Origin: a virus
DNA length: 24,022 nt
Strand: one strand, 5' to 3'
IMG/VR virus record: IMGVR_UViG_3300035670_001227
Location: 1 to 24,022 of that record
The position numbers were made by a program, and so were the translations under genes. Below, in pieces: positions 4,386 through 23,276 of this stretch (its first letter is position 1; each line of letters begins with the position of its first letter). Under the pieces are notes generated by a model that was not told the origin of the DNA, searched no databases, and saw only the letters and a program-made list of their open reading frames with translations.

Positions 4386-4407
4386 CCGGGTAAAACTAAT
4401 CAAGTAA
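4386..4407 (+). promoter_or_regulatory. Intergenic GGGTAAAA motif, copy 1
   Basis: CCGGGTAAAACTAATCAAG plus TAA begins directly after the gp25 stop and ends 21 bases before the portal start. It matches six other junctions in this window (6007, 9173, 11881, 19495, 22165, 23261). No good Shine-Dalgarno sequence lies between it and the portal ATG. The function is unknown; a phage-specific promoter or an RNA processing site are the leading possibilities. Confidence 0.55.
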
Positions 4408-9172: not shown

Positions 9173-9189
9173 GGGTAAAAACACTTAAC
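9173..9189 (+). promoter_or_regulatory. Intergenic GGGTAAAA motif, copy 3
   Basis: GGGTAAAAACACTTAAC starts directly after the TGA of the gpF-like gene and lies 43 bases before the decoration candidate's ATG. A related GGATAAAATC lies nearer that ATG (about 9207). Confidence 0.5.
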
Positions 9190-10851: not shown

Positions 10852-11295
10852 ATGGCTATTCTTCGCCCAATCACAAAGGCTCAATACGAAGTGAGTTTCA
10901 CCGCTCTTGGCGGTCCTACGTTCACTTCTCTGTTTACCACTTTTAGTGGAATTAACGATTCCTCTGATAGCAGCACCTACGCCAACGGTACAGGCAACCG
11001 TCTGTATCACGTTGTGGGTCCTCGGACCGCTGACAACGTTACTCTCGGCGCTCCATACGATCCGTCGATCTTCAAGGCTCTTGAGCAATTCTGGATCGAC
11101 TATAACTGCGAACCCATCACTATTACAGTCACCCCCCGTGATTGTACTGGTCAAGGTTCTGCTCCTACCGGTGGTCAATACACTTGCTATGAGTGTCAGT
11201 TCGTGAGCATCACGACTGCTGACGTTGACCGTGAGAGCGGCGACGTTCAGACGATTGAAGTGGAGTTTACGGTAAATTATTTCGATAGGACCTGA
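10852..11295 (+). CDS. Tail tube protein candidate
   Basis: Likely the inner tube subunit of the contractile tail. The 147-residue protein has the pattern of phage tube proteins: an N-terminal beta segment, LYHVVGPRTADNVTLGAPYD, then a helix FKALEQFWIDYN, then alternating strands ending in VQTIEVEFTVNYFDR. This resembles the T4 gp19-type layout, in which a segment for the charge on the strand precedes a long helix and a C-terminal beta hairpin. Four cysteines (in NCEP, RDCT, TCYEC) are unusual for a tube. AAGGAGGTG (10838-10846) is a near-perfect Shine-Dalgarno sequence. The gene lies more than 7 kb from the sheath gene rather than next to it. A head-tail completion protein is the alternative. 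Confidence 0.6.
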   Translation: MAILRPITKAQYEVSFTALGGPTFTSLFTTFSGINDSSDSSTYANGTGNRLYHVVGPRTADNVTLGAPYDPSIFKALEQFWIDYNCEPITITVTPRDCTGQGSAPTGGQYTCYECQFVSITTADVDRESGDVQTIEVEFTVNYFDRT

Positions 11296-11316
11296 GTAAA
11301 CTATTTAGAGTTTACT
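11295..11316. repeat. Perfect 8-bp inverted repeat after the tube gene
   Basis: AGTAAACT (11295-11302) and AGTTTACT (11309-11316) are exact reverse complements around a six-base spacer, followed by TTCTTTT. It may be a weak terminator for the tube transcript or a protein binding site. Confidence 0.6.
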
Positions 11317-11335
11317 TTCTTTTATCGACACTATA

Positions 11336-11360
11336 ATGCCTCCGAAAGGGGGCATTTTTT
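11336..11360 (+). terminator. Intrinsic terminator abutting the endonuclease start
   Basis: ATGCCTCC (11336-11343), loop GAAA, then GGGGGCAT (11348-11355, one G-T pair) and a T run that ends directly before the ATG at 11361. It would end transcription from the capsid-tube genes. The AGGGGG in its 3' arm (11347-11352) is also the only ribosome binding site candidate for the endonuclease. Confidence 0.8.
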
Positions 11361-11876
11361 ATGATTACGTATACTGCTACCAACACAAAAAATGGCAAGT
11401 TTTACATTGGGTCTGCCAAAGATTACTGTAACTACATGAACAGGAGGGGCAACCATCACGTCGGTAACCCCTATAATGACTTTCGCAAAGACCTTCAAAC
11501 AGACCCCCTAGCATTTGAGTGGGAATATTCTGAGGACGACAGTGATGAAAGGGATTTTGAGGCAGCCTTGCTAGCAATCTATGTCGGCAATAAGTGGTGT
11601 TATAACCTCCGTAAAGAGGATCGCCTCACATCAGAAACCGCTTCGTTGGCGAATAAATCTCGTAAAACCACTGCCAGAAGTGAGGAGTGCCGGAGAAAAA
11701 TGAGTGAAAGTGCTCGCAAACCCGAAGCAAATCCCCCACACAAAAAAGAAGCACAACGGGAAGCAATGCGAAAAACATCTCTAAATAAATCTCCTTGCCC
11801 CGATTGTGGACTTATGCTTGGACCCGGAAATATGAGCAAGCACCGAAACGGCAAGCGATGCCCCGGAAATTTGTAG
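11361..11876 (+). CDS. GIY-YIG homing endonuclease with C-terminal zinc finger
   Basis: A free-standing GIY-YIG nuclease of 171 residues, expected to cut phage DNA lacking the gene and spread by repair. ITYTATNTKNGKFYIGS (residues 2-18) gives the GIY and YIG strands. Arg28/Arg29 and Glu67 are plausible catalytic residues. Residues about 105-120 (ARSEECRRKMSESARK) resemble a NUMOD-type DNA-binding helix. Cys146, Cys149, His161 and Cys167 form a C2HC zinc-finger pattern (CPDCGLMLGPGNMSKHRNGK then RC). Codon use is mixed and base composition more AT-rich than the virion genes, as expected for a later arrival. Its start directly follows a terminator T-run, so expression needs read-through and opening of the hairpin. 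Confidence 0.88.
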   Translation: MITYTATNTKNGKFYIGSAKDYCNYMNRRGNHHVGNPYNDFRKDLQTDPLAFEWEYSEDDSDERDFEAALLAIYVGNKWCYNLRKEDRLTSETASLANKSRKTTARSEECRRKMSESARKPEANPPHKKEAQREAMRKTSLNKSPCPDCGLMLGPGNMSKHRNGKRCPGNL

Positions 11877-11880
11877 GTGA

Positions 11881-11896
11881 GGGTAAAACCAAGTAA
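11881..11896 (+). promoter_or_regulatory. Intergenic GGGTAAAA motif, copy 4
   Basis: GGGTAAAACCAAGTAA lies five bases after the endonuclease stop and before the next baseplate-region gene. After removal of cassette 1 it would directly follow the tube gene stop. As the junction behind a terminator, it supports the idea that the motif restarts transcription. Confidence 0.5.
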
Positions 11897-11900
11897 CGAA

Positions 11901-12476
11901 ATGGCCGCCCGTCAAGGTATGAGTAAGACCACATTTAGTTCAGGAGTAATTGTTACCTCTGAGTTCCTGAACGGCTTTCAACAAATTTATTTTGACGGGC
12001 AGGATCTAGATCATCACTATCCTCCGCTCGGCCTTAATTCACTGGTGCGCACTGGCCCAAACGGCCTAGACGTAGCCTACGTTTCTCTCACTACAAACCA
12101 ACCGGAACTGGACTCTTCGGGAAAGCTGGTTAGCGGCGTCCCGATTAGCGGAACGAAGGTTGTTACTGGCGTCTGGAACTTCGGATATGATCCGCTCCAG
12201 GTTGGAAATCCCGCAAACGTCCGAGAATACGCCCCGAAGAGTTTTACGACCAACGACAAGTTTTCTTTTGCTAACGGAGTTCCGGCCCCAACTCCGTCTC
12301 AAAAGTTCGCTGCACTTGCGTCTGAAGACATTGTAACCAAAGAAGTTGTTGAGCAATGGGTTCAATATCTTTTCGATACCCAAAACGTCGACAATGGCAT
12401 TTACTACTCCGCCACCAACCCTACTTGTGATAACTACGGGGTGGCCGGCAGCTCCGACACAATCTGTCCTGCCTGA
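11901..12476 (+). CDS. Unknown virion-region protein
   Basis: Not recognised. It is about 191 residues from ATG 11901. Other possible starts are GTG 11877, which would place the GGGTAAAA motif inside the coding region and is less likely, and ATG 11919. None has a convincing Shine-Dalgarno sequence. The protein begins with SKTTFSSGVIVTSEFLNGFQ, a pattern common at the N-terminus of small phage fibre or baseplate-associated proteins. It continues as mixed beta sequence rich in Asn, Gly and Ser, and ends with two cysteines. It sits immediately before the gp6-like gene, so a baseplate or fibre-attachment role is likely. Confidence 0.6.
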   Translation: MAARQGMSKTTFSSGVIVTSEFLNGFQQIYFDGQDLDHHYPPLGLNSLVRTGPNGLDVAYVSLTTNQPELDSSGKLVSGVPISGTKVVTGVWNFGYDPLQVGNPANVREYAPKSFTTNDKFSFANGVPAPTPSQKFAALASEDIVTKEVVEQWVQYLFDTQNVDNGIYYSATNPTCDNYGVAGSSDTICPA

Positions 12477-12487
12477 GGAGGTAAACT

Positions 12488-15313
12488 GTGCCTAGATACG
12501 CCCCTCTGCCCTCAGTCTCCATCGACCCTCGGAACGAGGCGCAGATCGTTCAGCAGGCTTCGCAAAGGGTTTATGAGGCCTCCGGCCAAACGCTTAATGA
12601 CTTTTCTGCAGGAAACCCGCTTGCCGCTCTTCTCGAGGGACAAGCATTCGCACAGGGAGAATTTCTCTTCTGGGCAAACCAGCTTCCTCAATCAATCCTG
12701 CTTGAATGGATCGGCCCATTTCTGGGGGCAATGCGACGGCTGGGGACCCCCGCTGTTGCCCGCCTCCTCGTTACGATTCCGTCCTCAAGCACGATCTTTA
12801 CGATCCCTGAAGGTACGGCATTTACCACAAACCCGGATTTAACGGGTGGTGAGGTTTTTTCGTTCGTTACCTCAACCGAAACGGTCATTCCGGCTGGGGA
12901 GTCCAGTGCGTTTATTTCTGTCGCCTCTCAGTATGTCGGTGCGATCTATAATGCACCCTCGAATTCCATTACAGGTATTCCAGCAATCAACCTTGATGGA
13001 ATCACGGTTACAAACCCTCAACCCGCCTCTGGCGGTAGCGACGTTGAGACCTACCAGGAAGTTCAGGAACGTTTTTTCACCCTTATTCGCCGCCGCAATC
13101 CTGTAAGTGCGGAGGATTGGCAGGACTTTTTTACGGACTTTTACGGAGTTGGCACGCAAACTTCCGTGCAACCGAATCGCCCAAACCGTGGAACCTATAA
13201 CTATCTTTCCGACTACCTGAAGCCGAACGGTCAGGTTTCCTTCTTTGTTCTCGGACCCAACGGGGTCGAGTTGAACGAAGAGCAGCTTCTGCGTGGACAA
13301 AAAGTTATAAATTATTCTGTCCCAGTCGAGAACCAAGCCCACCTGTATCCAATCACGTTGAGCCAGGTTCAATACGACATTAAGCTTGAGGTTGACACCG
13401 GGGGAGTTTTTGCGAACGACCTGAAGGACACTTCTCTCAACTTTCGAGACAGGCTATTTCAAATTCTGCTTCCTGGGAATGTTTTCCCCGCCACCACCAA
13501 CCCTACGGTGAGTGATGTCGACGCAGCTTTTTATCAAACCTTTGACTCAAACACACGTTTTGTAGATCCGCACATCGAGGCGAGTGCAGCATACAACACA
13601 CCTCCGCTCCTCGAGGCTGGCGCAGCAACATACACAAATGTTTTAAACTTTTCGTCGAAAGGCAGTCTCTTGACTGCAGGAGACCTGGTTCAGACAACCC
13701 TGCCGGTGTCTATTTTCTATCCGGTTCTCACAGACTTTACTCCCTATTCCTCAGACAAGAAAGATCAAACAGTCTATGGAAACTTGGAGCTTCAGCAGAT
13801 AACCCGTCTGGTCCCGGGCAATTACTCCAAGGGCCAGGTTTGCTATTGGGATCTTGCCGACGGTGGGGATGGGGAGCTCCACATCGTTCTCGAGAATCTC
13901 ACAATTGGGTCTCAGAATGACGTTTCGACGGACATTTCAAAAGGAAAAATTACAGGGGCAAAGACGTACTCTCCCTGGATTGTTGGAAACAGCTACATTG
14001 CTACGACAGGTTCGCTGTACAGCCCGGAAATAGTTGAGTATGACTATGTTTCCGGAGACGGTCAGTTCATCCCTGATCCTTCCTCAACGGTGCCATTGAA
14101 CAAGCGTCCTGGCGCTTTTGCCTGGATTGTAAATCAAAACTTCACACTTCAACCGTCGACAAACGACATCACCGGTGCCCAGGCAGCAAACCTTCTGGGT
14201 TCTCCTGTAACACCGAAAGTTTTGGTCCCCGGTCAGTCTTATTCTGCGGGTGACTGGGTTCAAACCCGGCAGATCGGTTCCGGACCAAATCCGAAGGTAG
14301 ATCCGTATTACGACTACGTTGATACACGACTGGGTGTGGTTACAAAGTACGCAAAGGTAATTAACTCTTTTGTCTATGTTCCGGACGGTCAAACTGTCAG
14401 CACATACTTCGACGACTTGGTGGAGCAAGGGACCATTCAGGAGATTATCACTCAAAATGGTGATAAGGGTTTGCCAGTATCTCGGTACAAACCCCGTTTC
14501 CCGGTTTTGACGTATTTGGAGTATCGTTCCGACGCAATGGGAGACCCTGAGTATTACATTGCCACAAAGGATTTCACACCTACGAGCACAGTGGCTCAGG
14601 ACATGGTTGATCAGAAACTTATTTATAAACTTTACATCAACCCAACTCAGAGTGTTGAGTTTCTCAACGGTCTTTCCTCCGGCACAGTCAAAAACACCAC
14701 AAGGATGTTCCGTTTCTTTAAGGGAGATCGGACTTTCTTCCGGCAAGGTTCAAAAGTCATCTCCTACACAGCAACCACCAACGTTCACCCTCTGTTCGAA
14801 TTCTATGTTTACAAGGAAAACGGGGTGTTTGTTGAGACAGAGACATATGTGACAGGTCAGTTTGAGTCACTGAGTTACATTCCCTTTTTCAATCCCACGT
14901 ACATTCAGTACTCCGAGGACACAATCCTGGATGAGGACGGCAGGAATCTGTACCGGGTGATGAGGGCATTCACTCCGCAGGAAACCGTGGTGAACTGGAC
15001 GAGCACAACTGTCACAAACACCGCCAGAATTGAGGAGTACGGGGGGAACCTTCTCAGGTACGTAGACAAGTATTCTTGCGAACAAGACATCCTTTCTCAG
15101 CTTGGTAAAGACATCTCCGCAGTAAAATTAGGTGTGGCAAGCATCACGCTGGTTCCAAAAGGTGGCCGAGGCTTCTCCAACTCTCGAGAAGAGGTCAAGT
15201 TCGTGTGGGAAAATACGGACACCCTGAACGAGGTGCCCCAACTATCCTGGTTCTCTGGAACGGGATTCCCTTACACACCTCCCGTCTACGGTGAAGGAAC
15301 GTTGAAACTATGA
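12488..15313 (+). CDS. Baseplate wedge protein, gp6-like (Baseplate_J)
   Basis: This is a major wedge protein of the baseplate, equivalent to T4 gp6 / P2 gpJ. It has 941 residues (T4 gp6 has 660). The family signature is clear in residues about 80-300: TIPSSSTIFTIPEGTAFTTN, an ETVIPAGESSAFISVASQ strand, GAIYNAPSNSITGI and the diagnostic VTNPQPASGGSDVETYQEVQ leading to an R-F-F-T-L-I-R-R-R helix. The C-terminal half contains stretches like VPGNYSKGQVCYW and VPGQSYSAGDWVQ that resemble small W-x-x-G-x-x-Y-x-x-G-D-x-V carbohydrate-binding modules. GTG 12488 has a strong AGGAGGT upstream, overlapping the previous stop. The stop overlaps the next start. Confidence 0.85.
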   Translation: MPRYAPLPSVSIDPRNEAQIVQQASQRVYEASGQTLNDFSAGNPLAALLEGQAFAQGEFLFWANQLPQSILLEWIGPFLGAMRRLGTPAVARLLVTIPSSSTIFTIPEGTAFTTNPDLTGGEVFSFVTSTETVIPAGESSAFISVASQYVGAIYNAPSNSITGIPAINLDGITVTNPQPASGGSDVETYQEVQERFFTLIRRRNPVSAEDWQDFFTDFYGVGTQTSVQPNRPNRGTYNYLSDYLKPNGQVSFFVLGPNGVELNEEQLLRGQKVINYSVPVENQAHLYPITLSQVQYDIKLEVDTGGVFANDLKDTSLNFRDRLFQILLPGNVFPATTNPTVSDVDAAFYQTFDSNTRFVDPHIEASAAYNTPPLLEAGAATYTNVLNFSSKGSLLTAGDLVQTTLPVSIFYPVLTDFTPYSSDKKDQTVYGNLELQQITRLVPGNYSKGQVCYWDLADGGDGELHIVLENLTIGSQNDVSTDISKGKITGAKTYSPWIVGNSYIATTGSLYSPEIVEYDYVSGDGQFIPDPSSTVPLNKRPGAFAWIVNQNFTLQPSTNDITGAQAANLLGSPVTPKVLVPGQSYSAGDWVQTRQIGSGPNPKVDPYYDYVDTRLGVVTKYAKVINSFVYVPDGQTVSTYFDDLVEQGTIQEIITQNGDKGLPVSRYKPRFPVLTYLEYRSDAMGDPEYYIATKDFTPTSTVAQDMVDQKLIYKLYINPTQSVEFLNGLSSGTVKNTTRMFRFFKGDRTFFRQGSKVISYTATTNVHPLFEFYVYKENGVFVETETYVTGQFESLSYIPFFNPTYIQYSEDTILDEDGRNLYRVMRAFTPQETVVNWTSTTVTNTARIEEYGGNLLRYVDKYSCEQDILSQLGKDISAVKLGVASITLVPKGGRGFSNSREEVKFVWENTDTLNEVPQLSWFSGTGFPYTPPVYGEGTLKL

Positions 15314-16605
15314 GTCAGATTCTTACACCGATAAACGGGGGGACCATACCTGAGATCCAAACCTCCACCACCTCGACAGGGTTGAAAGTTCTGTCCGCTC
15401 AGTACATCCAGGCAAAAAAACTTGAAAGTCGCCCAACTGAGTGGAACGGGAATGGAAAGCCGATTTATCGACGGTTGCCAGCTGTCAGCGAAGCATATCA
15501 AATAAATTTCTATAACGTTGTAGCCAACTCCAACGTTGTCGGAAACACTTTCGTGGGAGAGGAGATTGAAGAGGTAGGGTACGTTTACATCCCCATCGGA
15601 AATGGTTACAGCGGGGTAGGTTCTCTCGAGGTTGTTCTTTCGGAGAATCGAAAAAACCTACTCATTAACTCTGGAAAAATAATTTGGAAGAACGGCAGCA
15701 CCGAGCTACTCCCCACGATCGTGAATCTCCCGGTCTTAGAGGTGAGGAGTGGATCATATGACTTGGCCTATCAGCTTTCCTACGATGATGCCCCAGCACC
15801 TTTAGCTTACGAGGTTTCTGATTTTTCATTAGCTGGCCAGCCGCTTACCATCACTAGCAGTACCGACAACGTTATCGGGTGGAGGAAAAAAGCTGTAAAT
15901 GCCTTTTTAAACTCCGCCAATTTGTCCTGGTCCAACGAGGACTCATTCTTTCCCTCCTCTCTTCAGCCCTCTGAGGCATTTCTGAGATGGGAGAGTGAGT
16001 ATGTCCACACGTACAGTAAAATAGTGTTACGGTGTCCGACTGGAACTGCCTACACCGGGACTGCCTCCCTGTACTCTGTGAGCAACGGCGGAGAAACTCT
16101 AGTCGAGTCCACAAACGTTCAAAAAGACTCGACGGGTCAATTCTTTGAGTTCTCTCCGAGTGGGACTGTGACCTCCACTACCTGGACCGTGAGATTTTCG
16201 AACCCAAAAGTCTCTATCCAGTCAGTCACGGTCTCCGGAATCTTGACTCTGCTATCTTCTTTTTCCACCCCGACATTAAGGTCGGTGCTGGTCATGTATC
16301 CTGAGGGGACTGCCCCAAAAACAGTAAAAAATTCTCTGGACGAAGATGTACCCGTAACTTACTGCATCATCGCCAGGGTTGACACTGACGATACGTCAAC
16401 GGTCACCGGCCTGGAGGATAAACGGAGCATCATTAACAGTGATTACACCCCGGTTGCGGAGTGGTTGACAACACCTTTTGATGAAGACTTGATCGACCTG
16501 TATGATCAGGTCTCTGAGTACTCCTCGGTGTGGATGGACCCTCAAGTGGCAATGAAGCAGGAATACCAGAACTTAACAAAGAAACAAGTCACCGTGGAGG
16601 TCTAA
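15310..16605 (+). CDS. Putative baseplate or tail protein, unknown
   Basis: Not recognised. The protein has 431 residues, mostly beta-rich with many Ser/Thr, and no signal or membrane segment. Two internal regions, about residues 135-190 and 225-310, look like jelly-roll or Ig-like beta modules (LRWESEYVHTYSKIVLRCPT, TWTVRFSNPKVSIQSVTVSG). The C-terminus is more helical (DLYDQVSEYSSVWMDPQVAM). It overlaps the gp6-like stop by four bases (ATGA) and abuts the next large gene, so the three probably form one translationally coupled baseplate unit. A T4 gp8/gp7-like wedge role is possible by position only. Confidence 0.6.
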   Translation: MSQILTPINGGTIPEIQTSTTSTGLKVLSAQYIQAKKLESRPTEWNGNGKPIYRRLPAVSEAYQINFYNVVANSNVVGNTFVGEEIEEVGYVYIPIGNGYSGVGSLEVVLSENRKNLLINSGKIIWKNGSTELLPTIVNLPVLEVRSGSYDLAYQLSYDDAPAPLAYEVSDFSLAGQPLTITSSTDNVIGWRKKAVNAFLNSANLSWSNEDSFFPSSLQPSEAFLRWESEYVHTYSKIVLRCPTGTAYTGTASLYSVSNGGETLVESTNVQKDSTGQFFEFSPSGTVTSTTWTVRFSNPKVSIQSVTVSGILTLLSSFSTPTLRSVLVMYPEGTAPKTVKNSLDEDVPVTYCIIARVDTDDTSTVTGLEDKRSIINSDYTPVAEWLTTPFDEDLIDLYDQVSEYSSVWMDPQVAMKQEYQNLTKKQVTVEV

Positions 16606-19500
16606 GTGGTACAGTCTAAAAGCACTTTCAATGTAAATCAGTTCGAGTTGCGGGGGTTTACCGACCCTTACTTGACCCCCGACCAGTCTACGGCCGTCGC
16701 AGAGACTGAGCAGAGAGTCAATAGTCAACTCGATTTTCTGGCCCAGATGCTCGGGTGGAACGGTCCGAACTACTGGGACCAACTGGTTTCCACTCCGGAC
16801 CAGAAACGACAACTAATGTCGGGAAGCTTCGGGGTGTACAACAGCTATGTTGTCCCTGAGATTTTCGAGATTCGCAACTGGAATAATACAATCGTAATCG
16901 ATTCCCTCAAGGCACCCCTGGATGAGAGAGGATTACTTTCTGGCAAAGTTGTTCTCGACGACGTCTCATACCCCATTCTTTCAGCATCCAAAGAAGGTGA
17001 CAAAACCGTTATCTCGATCGGAGAACTTGACCAGGAATTTTTTAGCAAGGTCGAGTCAAACGTCCCCCTAAAACTTGATCTTCCGTCGGCCCGTCCTGCA
17101 CCTTTCTATCGACCCACGGTAGGAGTGGCTGGGGACTATTCTTTCCGGTGTGCCGGTGACGGTTCCACCTTGAATTTGTTCCCCACATATGACTCTTTGG
17201 GCAAGTTCCCGTTCCGTAACCCCGTCTTGTTTGCTGGTTCAGCATACTATTTTGACAAACCTGTCTACTTGAGTACCAACGAGACGACCCTCGACCCCGA
17301 CGTCATACCTGAGTATGACCCAGACAAAGAACTCTGGTACTTTCAAATCCCGGACAATGAGTCTGCATTCTCTAGTATTACGGCCACTCTGGTTCTGGCC
17401 AACTCCGGAGCAACCCAGGCAGCTAACGCAAAAAGGAGCATCCTAATTGTTGGCTGGGAAGATCCCAGCGACTGGAATTCCCCCTCCGTCTTGAACGGCT
17501 TTACCGGAACCTGGGGCAACAAAGGTGGTGCGTTGCCTTTTCACCATGCTTTCGATGCCTTGTCGATTCATGGTTTCAATGAAGAACAGTCAGTTACGCT
17601 TGACCCGGTCATAGCGGAATTGGACTTTAACCAAATATTAGCATTCATTTATTACTCTAAAACGGTCGTAGACTCCTCTGCTCCCTCTGATCCAAATCCA
17701 GGGGACCTGTGGTGGAATGATACCACAGGTGTGCTGGCCGTTTGGCTTGCTGAGGGGGAGTGCGGATTCTGGCTAGAGATCGACTACTTTCAGCAACCTC
17801 GCCAATTCCCAGTCCCTCAGGTGGTATTCACTGACATGGCGGACTTTCGTGCCGATGCCGGAAATTACCCCGAAGGCACGCCGATGAGAATCGACGATGT
17901 CACGGGGCTGAACATCTCCGACAACGTAATTGGGGTTCAAGGTACACTAACTTCTCCAGGATGGTTGATCCTTCACAAGGACACGGGGTCAAACTATTGG
18001 ACTCCTGACGAGTTCAATTTTGTTAATGTTACAGACTTCGCTGCTGACTCTGCTCTTCTGCCCTTTAAAACCCCTGTCAGCATTTACAATGCAACTGGAC
18101 TGAGTCCTTCTGGCCAGAACTACAAAGTGAGCAATCTAGGGGTAACTGTGCCCGGAGACTATGAGGTCCTCCTCCTCAAGGTGTATGAAAACGACAACTG
18201 GGAAATTGTGCCGGATTCGATAATAAAAAATATTGCCTACACCTCTCTGTTTGGTGGAACTCAACAGGGTCAGATGTGGTGGGACTATGCTAACGCAGAC
18301 CCCAACACTCGGGCTGCTGCAATCTACTACGAGACCGCCTGGGTCGGGGTCAATAGTCATGCGCAGAGTGGGCCACCAGCTCCCACCCTAGACTTGGGGG
18401 TTGTGCTTTTTTACTGCAACGGAACCTTGATGCAAGATGGTTTAGCGTATGCGGACGATGACCGCATCGTGACCTACTCATCGGACCCTGCCACAGGTAA
18501 ATACAAAATCACCTACACTCCGAAAACGTTCAAAGGCAGCGTCCAGTTACCGACAATCACAATCTCTGACAACTTAACCACCACTTTCCGAGCCGATGTT
18601 ACCGACCTGGTTTTTAGCGGAATCACGTATCGGATGCTCCCGAACATCTATAACTCCCAGACCCCCCTCCGTCTCTGGAAAGGGCAAGATCTTCAGGTCA
18701 CCGACGATGTCTCCGATCTATCTCGTGAAAACTTTATAAACATTCTTCGTGCCGACTTGAACAACGGACCCGGACCAGAAAACTGGGAGAAATTCTTTGT
18801 TCGGATGCCCCTGGAGTATGGAAGAGACGGGCAAGCCTGGAGAAAGACTACGCAGGTTTGCAAAAACTTCGCATATTGGGGGTCGGGAGTTGAACCAGAA
18901 AAGATGGACTGCCCTGCTTCTCAAAGCTCCCCACAAATCTACGAAGAACTTTTCCTCTATGAGAAGCCAATTGAAGACTTCAGTTACGTATATACGGAGC
19001 CATACCTGTACTCCAACGTGGCTTACTTTGATTTGACAGAGGTTGGTCAATTCCTGAACTCGGGTGTGTTCCCCGCAAACGATGTGGAGTTTGATGATTT
19101 TGACGAGGCTCTGTTCTCGGAGTATGACCCATTACACGACCGTCAGGCAGATGTGACATCACCAATAAATGGGGGGTACGGAAATTGGATTGGTCAGTAC
19201 GTTGACCTCAACCCTTGCCTACCCTTGACCGGGTTCCTTGAGACGGACCTTCTGAGTGGGGCCGTTTCACCGACCGAGGCACCTGTTTGGGATGCTTCGA
19301 TCTATAAGTTTGCCCCCACTTGCGAGTTTGAACCCGAGTCCTTCAACGTGGATACAAACCACTACAAAGTCTGCTACAGTTATTTTGTTGCCGATGCCTC
19401 CGCAGCTGAAGACCCGTTCTTCGACATTGCTCAGGAAGCTGCCTGGAGAAACCCGAAAACACAAGATCGAACTCTGTACCTAACCAATCGGGGCGGGTAA
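16606..19500 (+). CDS. Large putative baseplate wedge or fibre protein, unknown
   Basis: Not recognised; 964 residues, similar in size to T4 gp7 (1032) and in a comparable position, which is the only basis for a wedge guess. The N-terminus is extended and helical (STAVAETEQRVNSQLDFLAQ). The middle has two similar beta-turn motifs, PNPGDLWWND (about residues 363-372) and QQGQMWWDYA (about 554-563), which recur in the fibre-like genes at 23293 and 23768. The C-terminus has scattered cysteines and many Asp/Glu. GTG 16606 follows GGAGGT at a few bases and directly abuts the upstream stop. The stop TAA is part of motif copy 5. Confidence 0.6.
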   Translation: MVQSKSTFNVNQFELRGFTDPYLTPDQSTAVAETEQRVNSQLDFLAQMLGWNGPNYWDQLVSTPDQKRQLMSGSFGVYNSYVVPEIFEIRNWNNTIVIDSLKAPLDERGLLSGKVVLDDVSYPILSASKEGDKTVISIGELDQEFFSKVESNVPLKLDLPSARPAPFYRPTVGVAGDYSFRCAGDGSTLNLFPTYDSLGKFPFRNPVLFAGSAYYFDKPVYLSTNETTLDPDVIPEYDPDKELWYFQIPDNESAFSSITATLVLANSGATQAANAKRSILIVGWEDPSDWNSPSVLNGFTGTWGNKGGALPFHHAFDALSIHGFNEEQSVTLDPVIAELDFNQILAFIYYSKTVVDSSAPSDPNPGDLWWNDTTGVLAVWLAEGECGFWLEIDYFQQPRQFPVPQVVFTDMADFRADAGNYPEGTPMRIDDVTGLNISDNVIGVQGTLTSPGWLILHKDTGSNYWTPDEFNFVNVTDFAADSALLPFKTPVSIYNATGLSPSGQNYKVSNLGVTVPGDYEVLLLKVYENDNWEIVPDSIIKNIAYTSLFGGTQQGQMWWDYANADPNTRAAAIYYETAWVGVNSHAQSGPPAPTLDLGVVLFYCNGTLMQDGLAYADDDRIVTYSSDPATGKYKITYTPKTFKGSVQLPTITISDNLTTTFRADVTDLVFSGITYRMLPNIYNSQTPLRLWKGQDLQVTDDVSDLSRENFINILRADLNNGPGPENWEKFFVRMPLEYGRDGQAWRKTTQVCKNFAYWGSGVEPEKMDCPASQSSPQIYEELFLYEKPIEDFSYVYTEPYLYSNVAYFDLTEVGQFLNSGVFPANDVEFDDFDEALFSEYDPLHDRQADVTSPINGGYGNWIGQYVDLNPCLPLTGFLETDLLSGAVSPTEAPVWDASIYKFAPTCEFEPESFNVDTNHYKVCYSYFVADASAAEDPFFDIAQEAAWRNPKTQDRTLYLTNRGG

Positions 19501-19510
19501 AACCACTTAA
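19495..19510 (+). promoter_or_regulatory. Intergenic GGGTAAAA motif, copy 5
   Basis: GGGTAAAACCACTTAA contains the TAA stop of the large upstream gene and lies 29 bases before ATG 19524, which has no clear Shine-Dalgarno sequence. Confidence 0.5.
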
Positions 19511-19523
19511 ACGGACACAACCT

Positions 19524-19820
19524 ATGGCATCCTCACGCAGACGTTCCTCCGGTTTTACTGAAAAACCGGCTGAAGAAGAAATTGTAGAAACTACTATCGA
19601 GTCGGTGGTGGAGGTGGAGAAAGAATCCGAACCCTCCCCCCTTGTGGAAGAGTCTATCATTCCGACCGCCCTTCCGGAAGTTCAACCGGCAAAAGAAACG
19701 GAGCCTACTGTAAAGACGAGTTCTCAATCGGTGGCCGAGGCGAAAAAACCCGGGCAACAGTTAAGTCCTCCCCCGAAAAGGCATCCTCGCAATATTCCGA
19801 AGTTTTCTCGTCATAAGTAA
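19524..19820 (+). CDS. Small disordered Glu/Pro-rich protein, unknown
   Basis: A 98-residue protein dominated by Glu, Pro, Ser, Lys and Val, with no hydrophobic core, so probably disordered. It has a basic start (SSRRRSS), an acidic middle (AEEEIVETTIESVVEVEKES) and a basic, proline-rich end (PPPKRHPRNIPKFSRHK). It lies three bases before the OB-fold hub gene and follows motif copy 5. A linker or assembly-adaptor role in the baseplate is possible but unsupported. Coding status rests on the tight packing and the absence of stops. Confidence 0.55.
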   Translation: MASSRRRSSGFTEKPAEEEIVETTIESVVEVEKESEPSPLVEESIIPTALPEVQPAKETEPTVKTSSQSVAEAKKPGQQLSPPPKRHPRNIPKFSRHK

Positions 19821-19822
19821 AA

Positions 19823-20620
19823 ATGTCGAACTCTCTTCGTTATAACCCCTTCATTCAAAACCTAGCGGCGATGCAGGCTTCAACAGAAGCCAACATGAAG
19901 TATGCTGGTCTCCCTCGTGGGACTTTGCGGGGAACCATCGTTGATGTTGACGATCCCAAGAACCGTGGTCGTGTTCGAGTTATTTTCGATGACATGAACC
20001 CCGACATTCCCCAGGTTTCTGGGGCGGGTGATTGGTCGAAAGAACGTGTTGGAGGGAAACCTGACAAGTCCCACTGGATTGATATGTCCCCTGCGTTCAA
20101 GGGGAAACAACCAAAGGGAATGATTGGTAAACGAATCAACATCTCCGCATCCAACGGACAGTATCAATATGCCGTGGGTCAAGACCAAGTTTTCGACCGG
20201 TACATGTTGGCCGAAGGCAAGAAGAAAGAACTCGAGATGCCCGACAACTCGTCGATGACGAGACTGCCTTGTTACGAGAGTGGGAGCCTGCCTCCAGCCT
20301 CGAAAGAAAATGTCGGATGCACGGTGGTCGAGTGCGGGGGACCCCTTCAGTCGGACTGGCTGTGTGTTTGCCTTCAACGCAACGGTGAATACTACTGGGT
20401 CCGGCACATTGACGCCTCGCACGGCCATGCTGGACAAAATGACAGTACTGAGAGACCCGACTCTGACGGTGACTCGATGGCACCCATTAACAACCAAACG
20501 ATTTGGGACTACACTTTCCCGACCACGGCGGGAGAAATGAATAAACAAACCTCCTACGGAACATCCCCCCGTGGAAACCCGTTTGGTGGTGAAGCAAACT
20601 GGATTGGACCTGCAACATGA
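19823..20620 (+). CDS. Baseplate hub/spike protein with gp5-like OB fold
   Basis: Likely part of the central hub or spike below the tail tube. Residues about 32-130 form a gp5/VgrG-type OB fold: RGTLRGTIVDVDDPKNRGRV continuing VRVIFDD is the classic first hairpin, in which a D-P-x-x-x-G-R-V-(K/R)-V pattern is near-diagnostic, and WIDMSPAF matches the later strand. The rest of the 265 residues lacks a lysozyme domain and the repetitive beta-helix of T4 gp5, so the needle or lytic activity must be elsewhere. A C-V-V-E-C-G-G strand and several His lie in residues 165-205. Its stop overlaps the next start (ATGA). No clear Shine-Dalgarno sequence precedes ATG 19823. Confidence 0.78.
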   Translation: MSNSLRYNPFIQNLAAMQASTEANMKYAGLPRGTLRGTIVDVDDPKNRGRVRVIFDDMNPDIPQVSGAGDWSKERVGGKPDKSHWIDMSPAFKGKQPKGMIGKRINISASNGQYQYAVGQDQVFDRYMLAEGKKKELEMPDNSSMTRLPCYESGSLPPASKENVGCTVVECGGPLQSDWLCVCLQRNGEYYWVRHIDASHGHAGQNDSTERPDSDGDSMAPINNQTIWDYTFPTTAGEMNKQTSYGTSPRGNPFGGEANWIGPAT

Positions 20621-20916
20621 GTGGATACCCTGACCCTGACTATGCTCCCCCTGAGACTTATCCCTCCAGCGTGGGGGAGAGCTGCGAGAATCCCAAACCC
20701 GCCTGGTTCTGGAAGGGTGGATACTTTTGTGAAGACGTAACGATTGGTCGTTCCTTGACCACCTCGTTATTGTCAGTCGGAGCGGATTTTGTAACAGTGG
20801 GTGGCACTCAGTACCAAAAAACCCTGTTTCTAAACTCCTACGACGGGAGATACTATTACGTACTAGCCAATCAACTTCCCATAGACTTCGTTCCACCTCC
20901 GATCCCTATCACGTAA
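20617..20916 (+). CDS. Small unknown baseplate-region protein
   Basis: Not recognised; 99 residues. It has a Pro/Tyr-rich N-terminus (MSGYPDPDYAPPETYPSS), an aromatic KPAWFWKGGYF segment and a proline-rich C-terminus (IDFVPPPIPIT). It begins inside the stop of the OB-fold gene and ends directly before the next ATG, so it is co-translated with the hub gene. It may cap or bind the hub. There are no membrane segments. Confidence 0.6.
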   Translation: MSGYPDPDYAPPETYPSSVGESCENPKPAWFWKGGYFCEDVTIGRSLTTSLLSVGADFVTVGGTQYQKTLFLNSYDGRYYYVLANQLPIDFVPPPIPIT

Positions 20917-21384
20917 ATGGCCATTCGTCGTCCCTCTCTGTCCTCTGAAAACTGGTTGTACCAGGACTTCCTCTTCCTGAAGGAGGGAGAAGTTCAGTAC
21001 CGAAACCTCCAAGTCAAGTGGGACGGCGAAGTGTACTCCCGCACCTCTCAAAGTTTTGACTATAGCGACCCCCCGTATACTGGCGACCAGCAGCGAGGTG
21101 GTCACATTGTTGCTCAAATTGACTACACCCTGTCTGCAGGAATGGTTACGGTCACGGACTGGTACCTCAACTGGAGGGATGACCTTCCCCTACGATTTGG
21201 AATCATTCACCTGGCAAATTGCCTCTACCCTCAAACACGATACTCGATTCGTGTTGCCCAAGACGAAGTCTATAACCAAGCAGGAGAGACGATCCAAGTA
21301 CTCAACAAAGAACCCATCGCATTCTGGGTCTCAGAAAGGTTCGGACCTCTGAGCAACTCCCCCGATACTCCACTTTGGCGGTGA
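20917..21384 (+). CDS. Unknown baseplate-region protein
   Basis: Not recognised; 155 residues, beta-rich with many aromatics (MVTVTDWYLNWRDDLPLRF) and few charges clustered at the ends. The ATG directly follows the previous stop. It is the last gene before the second endonuclease cassette. Its TGA overlaps the first base of ACCGGGT, the left copy of the cassette's flanking repeat. Part of the hub-adjacent operon by context. Confidence 0.6.
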   Translation: MAIRRPSLSSENWLYQDFLFLKEGEVQYRNLQVKWDGEVYSRTSQSFDYSDPPYTGDQQRGGHIVAQIDYTLSAGMVTVTDWYLNWRDDLPLRFGIIHLANCLYPQTRYSIRVAQDEVYNQAGETIQVLNKEPIAFWVSERFGPLSNSPDTPLWR

Positions 21385-21390
21385 CCGGGT

Positions 21391-21413
21391 TGCCCTTTTC
21401 GGGGCATTTTTTT
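21391..21413 (+). terminator. Intrinsic terminator after the baseplate operon
   Basis: TGCCC (21391-21395), loop TTTTCG, then GGGCA (21402-21406) and seven T. It would stop + strand transcription before it runs antisense into the endonuclease gene. A second hairpin, GTGCCC-TTC-GGGCAC (21417-21431), follows. Confidence 0.75.
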
Positions 21414-21447
21414 GTCGTGCCCTTCGGGCACTCCCCGCAACTTTCGC

Positions 21448-21468
21448 AAAAAGTTTTGAAAACTTTTT
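21448..21468. terminator. Bidirectional terminator, mainly for the minus-strand endonuclease
   Basis: AAAAAGTTTT-G-AAAACTTTTT is a nearly perfect palindrome located five bases past the endonuclease stop on the minus strand. With its A and T arms it can act in both directions, though the stem is AT-rich and weak. Confidence 0.55.
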
Positions 21469-21472
21469 GAAC

Positions 21473-22057
21473 TCATTTCCAAATCCTGCCCCGTTTCCAA
21501 CCTTCTCCGGGGCAGTCGTGTGCCATCGTTGTTTTTCCGTCTTCATTCACCCACCAGGTTGTCCCTCGGCAACTTTCGTTGTGTTTAAGGCACTTTTGCC
21601 GGAGTTTTTCAAAGTGTCCTGGGTCAAGTTTCTTCCCTTTTTTCTTTACACTCATTTTTCTCCGAGTTTCCTCCGATAATTTTCTTCCAGTTTTTGCCTT
21701 GCTCATTTTAAGACGGGCCGTGGCACTCATTTTCTTGCCCTTGTGTTTTTCGGACAGTGTTTCCCGTTGCTCAGGGGTCCAGACCCTTCCACTTAACCCG
21801 TCACCCCCGTCAGTCATATTCCGTAAACAACCTGTGCCGAGGTCCTTCCTGCCAAAAATACCTATCATGTATATTTCGTGTTTCAGTGCCTCTGCCTCCG
21901 TCAGGTCTTTTTTCAGTATGAGTATTCGGTCTCGGGGAGGCACCGGCAACTTTCCGTGCTTTTTATATGCCCGTTTTCCACAACCCTTGCCGATGTAGTA
22001 AGGGGTTTTGTCTTCCCGAAGGTAGGCATAGGTGTAAAAAATGTTGTTATCTGCCAT
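21473..22057 (-). CDS. GIY-YIG homing endonuclease with NUMOD3 repeats
   Basis: The only gene on the minus strand; 194 residues. The GIY-YIG domain is textbook: FYTYAYL and TPYYIGKG (residues 7-25), Arg29 in GKRAYKKHGK, catalytic Glu61 in ALKHEIYMIGIFG, and Asn80 in LRNMTDGGDGLSG. Three NUMOD3-type DNA-binding repeats follow (residues 92-143: QRETLSEKHKG, ARLKMSKAKTG, EETRRKMSVKKKG). The C-terminus (TTWWVNEDGKT then PGEGWKRGRI) is a W-x-N-x-G / P-G-x-G-W-x-x-G-R module found at the end of many phage homing nucleases. AGGG lies about ten bases before the ATG, partly in a hairpin. A TATAAT three bases upstream of the ATG is too close to be its promoter. Confidence 0.93.
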   Translation of the reverse strand: MADNNIFYTYAYLREDKTPYYIGKGCGKRAYKKHGKLPVPPRDRILILKKDLTEAEALKHEIYMIGIFGRKDLGTGCLRNMTDGGDGLSGRVWTPEQRETLSEKHKGKKMSATARLKMSKAKTGRKLSEETRRKMSVKKKGKKLDPGHFEKLRQKCLKHNESCRGTTWWVNEDGKTTMAHDCPGEGWKRGRIWK

Positions 22058-22069
22058 AAAATTATAACC

Positions 22070-22085
22070 CTAGAATTTATTCTAG
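22070..22085. repeat. Inverted repeat at the endonuclease ribosome binding region
   Basis: CTAGAAT-TT-ATTCTAG is a perfect 7-bp inverted repeat 12 bases upstream of the minus-strand start. On the minus-strand transcript its last bases overlap the TAGGG that could serve as ribosome binding site, so a hairpin could limit translation. Confidence 0.5.
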
Positions 22086-22105
22086 CACTTTGCAAAAAAA
22101 GTAAA

Positions 22106-22161
22106 TTGCCGGGGGTGCCTTTGGCACCAGAATAAAATGCCCCGTAGGGGCAACAAGGCAA
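22106..22161 (-). terminator. Double-hairpin region upstream of endonuclease 2
   Basis: GGTGCC-TTT-GGCACC (22114-22128) and TGCCCC-GTA-GGGGCA (22138-22152) are perfect hairpins, enclosed by TTGCC (22106-22110) and GGCAA (22157-22161). On the minus strand the second hairpin is followed by TTTTATT, so terminator activity is expected in that direction; on the + strand there is no T run. It may insulate the gene or be a cassette-end structure. Confidence 0.5.
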
Positions 22162-22164
22162 ACC

Positions 22165-22180
22165 GGGTAAAACCGAGTAA
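22165..22180 (+). promoter_or_regulatory. Intergenic GGGTAAAA motif, copy 6
   Basis: GGGTAAAACCGAGTAA lies 34 bases before GTG 22199, at the right edge of cassette 2, and shares GGGT with the right copy of the flanking repeat. Because a + strand terminator lies upstream, the gene at 22199 needs a promoter here or nearby. Confidence 0.55.
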
Positions 22181-22198: not shown

Positions 22199-23260
22199 GT
22201 GTCGTTACCCCGCATCAAAGAAGTTACCGTCCCTACAAGTACATCGGTCGTTCTGTGGTTTGATGGGCCTCTTGACCCAAGGGTGCCGGTTCCCGTGGAA
22301 AGTTTCACGGTAAACTACGGCAATTACGGGGTTTATAGTGTAACCTATTCCTCCGACACGATGGTTACTTTGGCCCTGGACTCGGGGCTGACACCTTGGG
22401 ACGAGGTTTTCGTTTCCTATGAGCCACCTTTAGACCTGAAGCAGTGCCTACGGGGACCTGTTCCTCCCACCGCAAACGACGTTGTTGTAAAGCGCAATGC
22501 GGTGCGTGCTTTCTACCGTGTTCCCGCAAGGAATCAACTCACTCCAGACGAAGGCACGGACGGATCGCAGGCAAAGTCCAACCTGGGATCAACTATCGGT
22601 GGATACGGGTTTCCCTACCAAAATCGAAACTCGGATCCCAAGTCAGCCAGTCCGGACGATTTCATCGTTGCTTACGGTTTGAAGGAAGCGATTCAACTCA
22701 CAAACATTGAAGATGCTTCGGCCACCACAGTAAATGTGGCCAAGCTGCGGATGGCTATCGAGGACGCCAACTCTCTGATTGACTCATACATCGAGCAATC
22801 TGGCAAAGCGGGAATGGTTCTCATTACGAGCAACCGTCGTCGCACTGCTCTGATTATTGCCCGATACTACCTTGACTCGGTTCGTCGTCGTGAAGATGTA
22901 AAATCCGACTACGAAACCGCACTGAAGCAAATTCAGGCAGAAATGCAAATGACTGCCATTCGTGCAGGTAACGGGGACTCTGCGATTGACACACCTGCCG
23001 GAATCATGCGGTCGTGGAGAACACCACAACGGTACAACGCCGTAAGCGGGAAAGGTTTGTCGGGTTTCACCACAGACTACGCCGGAGACCAGGGTGTTGA
23101 TTTTAGAGTAGGTTGGGGATCCATCGGTCAGAACAATAACGAAAATAATTGGATTACCGCAGCAAATCTGGATGAACTGACCGGTGGAACCCCTCAGATC
23201 TGGGAACCTACAGACTCCGGCGGTTGGTCTGTTGACGGAAGCCAAACCTGGGGACCCTGA
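22199..23260 (+). CDS. Ig-like domain fused to gp36/DUF1320 head-tail connector domain
   Basis: A 353-residue protein with two parts. Residues about 1-95 (IKEVTVPTSTSVVLWFDGPL, VNYGNYGVYSVTYSSDTMVT) resemble a SwmA/fibronectin-like beta sandwich. Residues about 155-260 match the Mu gp36 (DUF1320) connector domain: VAKLRMAIEDANSLIDSYI, then LITSNRRRTALIIARYYLD, a short RRREDVKSDYETALKQIQ helix and a final IRAG. Mu gp36 is only about 140 residues and lies in the head module; here it sits beyond the baseplate genes. The C-terminus (residues 280-353) is Gly/Trp/Asn-rich and resembles other gp36 tails. GTG 22199 has only AGGG about 11 bases upstream. The connector role follows from the domain; the role of the Ig-like part is unknown. 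Confidence 0.7.
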   Translation: MSLPRIKEVTVPTSTSVVLWFDGPLDPRVPVPVESFTVNYGNYGVYSVTYSSDTMVTLALDSGLTPWDEVFVSYEPPLDLKQCLRGPVPPTANDVVVKRNAVRAFYRVPARNQLTPDEGTDGSQAKSNLGSTIGGYGFPYQNRNSDPKSASPDDFIVAYGLKEAIQLTNIEDASATTVNVAKLRMAIEDANSLIDSYIEQSGKAGMVLITSNRRRTALIIARYYLDSVRRREDVKSDYETALKQIQAEMQMTAIRAGNGDSAIDTPAGIMRSWRTPQRYNAVSGKGLSGFTTDYAGDQGVDFRVGWGSIGQNNNENNWITAANLDELTGGTPQIWEPTDSGGWSVDGSQTWGP

Positions 23261-23276
23261 GGGTAAAACCAGTTAT
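23261..23276 (+). promoter_or_regulatory. Intergenic GGGTAAAA motif, copy 7
   Basis: GGGTAAAACCAGTTAT starts directly after the TGA of the connector-like gene and lies 32 bases before ATG 23293. A short echo, GGGTA, abuts that ATG. Confidence 0.5.

Follow-up and report, generated by a model that had tools for sequence, protein, structure and literature searches.

Predicted homing endonuclease cassettes dock at late-promoter-like gene junctions in the virion block of an S-CBWM1-like cyanomyovirus

The closest described counterparts of the genes considered here are the seg (GIY-YIG) and mob (HNH) genes of phage T4, which are intergenic, present or absent in close relatives and located between conserved, often essential genes, combine a GIY-YIG or HNH catalytic domain with a separate DNA-binding part, and occupy gaps in which T4 promoters also lie (PMC2988022). 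For I-TevI, T4 segB and Aeh1 mobE, read-through RNA forms a stem that occludes the ribosome site, and the transcript from the gene's own promoter lacks the 5′ arm of this stem (PMC2988022). In the T5orf172 family, nuclease and DNA-binding regions recombine as modules (PMC10448857). Here, we describe two predicted homing endonuclease genes in a virion-gene block of an S-CBWM1-like cyanomyovirus, the 24-kb IMG/VR virus record IMGVR_UViG_3300035670_001227 (the window below is this whole stretch of 24,022 nucleotides). One gene lies between the tail tube gene and gene 11877 (site A), the other between gene 20917 and the Mu gp36-like gene (site B); genes without a name are called by their start position. 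Both junctions carry copies of the same repeated element, GGGTAAAACC.

We consider it probable that this element is a late promoter, and that the inserts are free-standing homing cassettes at tolerated promoter gaps, for which the motif is not the target. The inserts are ordinary in kind, being free-standing homing endonucleases such as T4 seg and mob; the site-specific cassette is unusual and well documented. Like the T4 genes, the site A gene lies between genes and is found in some close relatives but not in others. Unlike in T4, inserts here are found at many junctions of one virion block, with the site A family tied to one of them, the genes reside in a cyanophage lineage whose portal is of the Mu type, and one regulatory leader and one zinc finger are common to different nuclease classes at a single site. 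The difference from the T5orf172 family is that here the GIY-YIG and HNH classes are swapped at a single fixed locus that retains the leader and the C-terminal finger.

With at most one mismatch, GGGTAAAACC has seven copies in the window, all on the plus strand, where 1.76 would be expected over the two strands together. In two long relatives, GGGTAAA is found on the coding strand versus the other strand 32 vs 1 times (112-kb relative) and 32 vs 7 times (92-kb relative), giving about 30 copies per genome, mostly 24–42 nt and sometimes 80–110 nt 5′ of an open reading frame (ORF). The strand bias is seen in most of the 15 records searched, and S-CBWM1 has nine copies on one strand versus one on the other. 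The motif consensus is (c/a)GGGTAAAAcc-N3-tAA, with no −35-like partner. Thus, a short conserved motif is found on the coding strand before late genes, as in T4-like single-block late promoters, and, since it follows terminators and lies at varying distances ahead of genes, it is best read as a late promoter; judging from sequence, the element is most likely the phage's own signal for late transcription. Such a promoter would head virion transcription units, often right behind the terminator of the previous unit. S-CBWM1 carries an annotated RNA polymerase sigma factor; a Sigma70_r4 search matched only three out of 10 records, so a sigma factor is not shown for all of them. Among 20 of 107 literature titles, none was relevant to GGGTAAAA as a phage promoter, and titles on S-CBWM1 and promoters gave nothing specific. 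With this motif, a widespread and little-studied cyanophage group gains a candidate late promoter.

The comparison set comprised 80 IMG/VR loci each for the portal, tail tube, and gp36 genes; as some contigs give several loci, redundancy was removed from the counts at 97% flank identity where this is indicated. In agreement with the initial annotation, both genes are removable insertions at junctions with the same element, and the nearest relatives lack them. At site B, deletion of 21391–22168 fuses ...GGTGACCGGGT to AAAACCGAGTAA exactly (ACCGGGT at 21384–21390 and 22162–22168), and the empty site that had been predicted, TGA-CCGGGTAAAACC, occurs naturally: the nearest relatives (L168 and L169) are insert-free and read TGA-CCGGGTAAAACCAGTTAAAG...GTG, and further empty alleles have the predicted form (L180, L183, L186, L192, L211, L171). 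About half of the empty site B clusters carry the motif, the rest being mostly 2–8 nt gaps without it, and inserts are found only in motif-bearing alleles (a small sample).

At site A, deletion of 11297–11881 fuses ...CCTGAG to GGTAAAACC, again exactly (TGAG at 11293–11296 and 11878–11881), and the analogous prediction, a stop codon directly followed by the motif, fails: in natural empty alleles a terminator separates the tube stop from GGGTAAAA, a hairpin with a T-run lying 3–14 nt 5′ of it in 55 out of 55 motif-bearing empty alleles. A TGAG target duplication was rejected, as other occupied alleles lack it and empty alleles differ; the repeat is a four-base coincidence. The motif is not restricted to insert-bearing phages, being present in 41 out of 42 empty clusters at this junction.

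What the site A cassette displaces is seen in the near-isogenic pair L119 (occupied) and L022 (empty), whose flanks are 98–99% identical and which differ between the tube stop and AAGTAGGGTAAAACC; hence the cassette replaces the stretch between these two points, terminator included. The stop codon of the tube gene differs as well: TGA is used in 36 of the 42 distinct empty ends vs 6 of the 29 occupied ones (p 6e-8), the latter having mostly TAA or TAG (the window stop is at 11293–11295), and in 12 phylogenetically independent pairs the switch goes in the same direction in 7.1 and in the opposite direction in 0.6 (median p 0.04). On the tree of 30 occupied and 47 empty tube alleles, occupancy was gained or lost at least 12 times on well-supported branches, and 20 times on the best tree, although recombination of the tube gene may distort this tree. 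Matched alleles with and without the insert, several dozen in all, form a natural series at this locus, which makes it testable how free-standing homing genes spare the host phage by standing in for its terminators and promoters. One allele, L103 (1240–1352), is a deletion remnant of the site A endonuclease, in which the promoter, the hairpin, about 17 codons, and the late-promoter motif are kept. The site A junction of S-CBWM1 differs from that of the window in having no endonuclease and no GGGTAAAAC. The site A region had no nucleotide match in INPHARED.

The 5′ ends of the site A inserts share a leader. In 28 of the 30 distinct inserts, a −10-like box (mostly TATAAT) runs directly into a hairpin, a T-run, and the start codon, and 25 of those 28 leaders add a TTTACT-like hexamer at 15–16 nt (L054, L148, and L151 by eye). 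The predicted own promoter of the cassette, TTTACT-N15/16-TATAAT, is not of the late type GGGTAAAA. The 22 distinct homologous leader hairpins show paired changes at most positions, and the two inserts without the hairpin (L038 and L152) retain the native terminator. These leaders suggest that the hairpin replaces the lost tube terminator. In the window, the hairpin overlaps the predicted transcription start, and its 3′ arm carries the only SD-like (Shine–Dalgarno-like) G-run, a weak one. The same leader precedes GIY-YIG genes, an HNH gene (L133, Pfam match above the cut-off), a third N-terminal type, and a tyrosinase gene. Pfam yields no family for the third type (L079 was tested; L054 and L162 look alike), and hence we claim only GIY-YIG and HNH. 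The tyrosinase-domain gene (L065, 16670–18097; 476 aa, PF00264 1.6e-28) stands at the tail tube dock behind the same promoter–hairpin leader.

At this junction, the cassette would thus swap the tube terminator for a hairpin overlapping its own promoter. Virion transcripts that read through would end at the cassette hairpin, with the ribosome site closed, and transcripts from the cassette's own promoter would start inside the hairpin, escape it, and be translated. The predicted stem over the ribosome site and the predicted own promoter starting inside the stem resemble I-TevI, segB, and mobE. Unlike in those genes, the stem here is also terminator-like (T6 run) and is predicted to replace the lost terminator of the neighbor, and the promoter is predicted to be sigma70-like inside a late unit, whereas T4 has the reverse, a late promoter inside early or middle units. 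The anatomy of the leader therefore suggests an I-TevI-like control logic with reversed timing and an added terminator function.

The nuclease encoded behind the leader in the window matches phrog_314 (homing endonuclease) at 3.9e-10, and the top Foldseek matches are 1LN0 and 1MK0, the I-TevI catalytic domain (probability 1.00, E 2.6e-3). The catalytic residues Y4, Y15-I16-G17, R28, E67, and N82 are invariant in 19 members of the family; by Pfam alone, the protein scores below the GIY-YIG cut-off (16.4 vs 22.6 bits). A C-terminal CxxCG...H...C finger, the putative DNA-binding region, is invariant in 25 site A members, and the GIY-YIG and HNH proteins at site A have in common the invariant C146, C149, G150, G156, N157, H161, and C167 (window numbering). 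Thus, as far as the alignments go, GIY-YIG and HNH domains are swapped above one common predicted zinc finger. The same site and finger combined with different nucleases suggest that site choice and cutting chemistry evolve separately.

Taking all this into account, we tentatively propose, with slightly less than even confidence in the claim as a whole, that the tail tube junction is an “interchangeable warhead” locus, in which nuclease domains and, once, a tyrosinase are exchanged on a fixed chassis. At its 5′ end the chassis would have a sigma70-like promoter and a terminator hairpin that overlap, at its 3′ end a site-specific zinc finger, and beyond this the late promoter of the phage; it would provide early expression of the cargo from the host sigma factor and shut-off from late virion transcripts, and would stand in for the displaced terminator. 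If true, its timing would be the mirror image of that of T4 I-TevI.

The initial annotation had left open whether the motif is part of the recognition sites or a tolerated docking site; the latter fits, and the former does not. In a location-blind, IMG/VR-wide search with the site A family profile, 32 out of 32 relatives were found beside the tail tube gene, and before gene 11877 where the contig reaches it; the search patterns were tuned to this family, and some of the 32 match only in the zinc-finger part. A motif-recognizing family should occupy several motif junctions, and the site A family occupies one despite some 30 motif copies per genome, which makes the motif a tolerated dock rather than a target. 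For the site B family, at least 580 relatives were found; of the best 80, only two are in this module, and only two have a motif copy no more than 400 nt away. At the gp25–portal and MuF–9216 junctions, inserts are found on the 3′ side of the motif; at the tube–11877, 20917–gp36, and gp36–23293 junctions, they are found on its 5′ side. Cassettes of this kind would spread when the nuclease cuts the genome of an insert-free relative and repair of the cut copies the cassette into it, the choice of the target being set by the DNA-binding region of the nuclease together with flanking gene sequence, and not by the motif. Inserts would be seen at promoter junctions because the gaps there let an insert break no gene, and would persist only where local control signals are kept or re-supplied.

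Homing genes are present in 55 out of 299 clusters at motif junctions vs 17 out of 501 at other junctions (deduplicated; odds ratio, OR, 6.4). Several points weigh against reading this enrichment as a link between cassettes and promoter gaps. The cluster counts derive from anchored loci and not from a random sample; compared to spaced motif-free junctions, the OR is 3.5 (p 6e-4); without the tube–11877 junction, it is not significant (OR 2.0, p 0.13); and the motif-free 9216–MCP junction (85–100 nt) has eight insert clusters, several of them intron-borne. Moreover, the motif and the insert are not always independent, as seen from the inserts with GGGTAAAA on their 3′ edge at the protease–MuF junction of L016 and L088 (L016, 8202–8810) and at the 11877–baseplate J junction of L129 (4849–5520), where nearly all empty alleles lack the motif. 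Motif junctions are a tolerated place, width is a strong confounder, and the tube–11877 junction carries most of the excess.

The foremost alternative is therefore that the co-occurrence is a by-product of space, motif junctions being wide and inserts surviving wherever room exists. It largely overlaps with the explanation preferred here, and it gains from the near absence of inserts at overlapping (−4 nt) junctions, as well as from the 9216–MCP inserts and the loss of significance just mentioned. Still, we regard it as rather unlikely by itself, since the MCP–tube junction (28 nt, no motif) has inserts in 0 out of 73 clusters, while motif junctions of similar width have some, and mere room leaves unexplained why cassettes re-supply a terminator or a promoter at their edges.

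It is improbable that GGGTAAAACC acts at the RNA level, as a translation enhancer, a processing site, or a structure of the 5′ untranslated region, rather than as a promoter. The prevailing distance of 24–42 nt to the start codons and the missing −35 partner would agree with such a role. However, the distance varies, reaching 80–110 nt, and in every motif-bearing empty site A allele the motif closely follows a terminator, the usual terminator–promoter order. Single-block motifs are, moreover, normal for phage late promoters.

Less credible still is the view that the motif copies are footprints of ancient endonuclease cassettes with a promoter on the 3′ edge. The protease–MuF and 11877–baseplate J alleles described above are what it would predict, and so is the restriction of site B inserts to motif-bearing alleles; on the other hand, the motif stands at dozens of gene heads genome-wide with no trace of an insert, and at the main junctions almost all empty alleles have it.

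Least probable of all is that the motif is the recognition or cleavage site of the endonucleases, or part of it, its scattered copies being as many landing pads: two unrelated endonucleases adjoin it in the window, and insert edges are often a few bases from it, but this view was rejected on the fidelity of family to junction. Also against it are the side on which inserts flank the motif, which changes from junction to junction, the location of most site B family relatives elsewhere and away from the motif, the intact motif of occupied alleles, which would make a motif-cutter cut its own genome, and the distance of hundreds to thousands of bp at which the free-standing enzymes of T4 cleave (PMC2988022).

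The remaining features are summarized in Table 1. The nearest named phage is Synechococcus phage S-CBWM1 (NC_048106.1, Aokuangvirus), with a portal identity of 63% and largely the same order of virion genes. The window encodes the sheath, gp25-like, Mu-type portal, protease, MuF-like, MCP, tail tube, baseplate J, and Mu gp36-like proteins, part of these names being taken from the S-CBWM1 annotation. The gene downstream of site A probably starts at ATG 11919 (or 11901) and not at GTG 11877, since relatives mostly align from about residue 15; the GTG start given by the ORF caller overlaps the motif (window 11877–11919).

Table 1. Positions of the features discussed, in window coordinates; functions are predicted from the evidence listed.
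Feature	Position	Strand	Evidence or remark
Motif copy, gp25–portal junction	4388..4397	+	motif scan
Motif copy, portal–protease junction, overlaps portal stop codon	6007..6016	+	motif scan
Motif copy, MuF–9216 junction	9173..9182	+	motif scan
Tail tube gene (T4 gp19-like), upstream anchor of site A	10852..11295	+	weak Pfam PF06841 match; 125 IMG/VR relatives
Sigma70-like promoter of site A cassette	11311..11337	+	TTTACT 11311–11316, 15-nt spacer, TATAAT 11332–11337; scan of insert 5′ ends
Hairpin GCCTCCGAAAGGGGGC + A + T6, abuts ATG, terminator-like	11338..11360	+	fold −12 kcal/mol
Site A homing endonuclease, GIY-YIG domain and C-terminal zinc finger (finger ~11796–11861)	11361..11876	+	phrog_314, Foldseek, alignment
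Downstream anchor gene of site A	11877..12476	+	relatives
GGGTAAAACC, late-promoter-like element after site A, just outside insert	11881..11890	+	in empty and occupied alleles
Motif copy, 16606–19524 junction	19495..19504	+	motif scan
Upstream anchor gene of site B	20917..21384	+	relatives
Site B insert, ~778 bp	21385..22162		comparison with empty L168/L169
Left arm of imperfect inverted ends, site B insert, terminator-like hairpins	21400..21421		22-nt arm
Site B homing endonuclease, GIY-YIG-like with NUMOD3	21473..22057	-	Pfam NUMOD3, phrog_314
Right arm of inverted ends, site B insert	22123..22144		86% complementary to 21400–21421
GGGTAAAACC, late-promoter-like element of Mu gp36-like gene	22165..22174	+	motif scan, empty alleles
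Mu gp36-like gene, downstream anchor of site B	22199..23260	+	PF07030 2.3e-11
Motif copy, gp36–23293 junction	23261..23270	+	motif scan

The site B ORF matches phrog_314 (homing endonuclease) at 1.8e-13 and a Pfam NUMOD3 motif at the cut-off; Pfam gives no GIY-YIG match for this protein. In nine members of its family, TYAYLR..TP-YIG, R, E, and N are conserved; the structure model of the protein is poor (pLDDT 62). The exact boundary of the insert is ambiguous due to the ACCGGGT repeat, and, bearing on a target-site duplication, the L176 and L181 inserts at site B have no left ACCGGGT copy. Double-hairpin inverted ends are common to different endonuclease families at this site (window; L176, 5902; L181, 5189), the end type being GCCCCnnnGGGGC, a T-rich spacer, and GGCGCCnnnGGCGCC. 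At the same junction, L230–L236 and L245, from a clade with contigs of up to 277 kb, have a 215-aa ORF flanked on both sides by GGGTAAAA.

Inserts at two other junctions are, judging from their edges, different ways of fitting in. At the portal–protease junction (L023, 11660; L041, 3257), the inserted endonuclease gene takes the GTGTTYAC start of the protease, and a corresponding start, ATGTTCAC, is placed at its own stop. At the gp25–portal junction, the endonuclease stop abuts the portal start codon, and a C-terminal tail is also common to different nuclease types.

An Rfam scan of the window found nothing. Among the relatives, L086 (7586–10542) has five Rfam group I intron matches at the gathering score, all within 3 kb, in the MCP region; L047, L079, and L033 have one match each in the MCP region, and L165 has one after a MuF–9216 insert.

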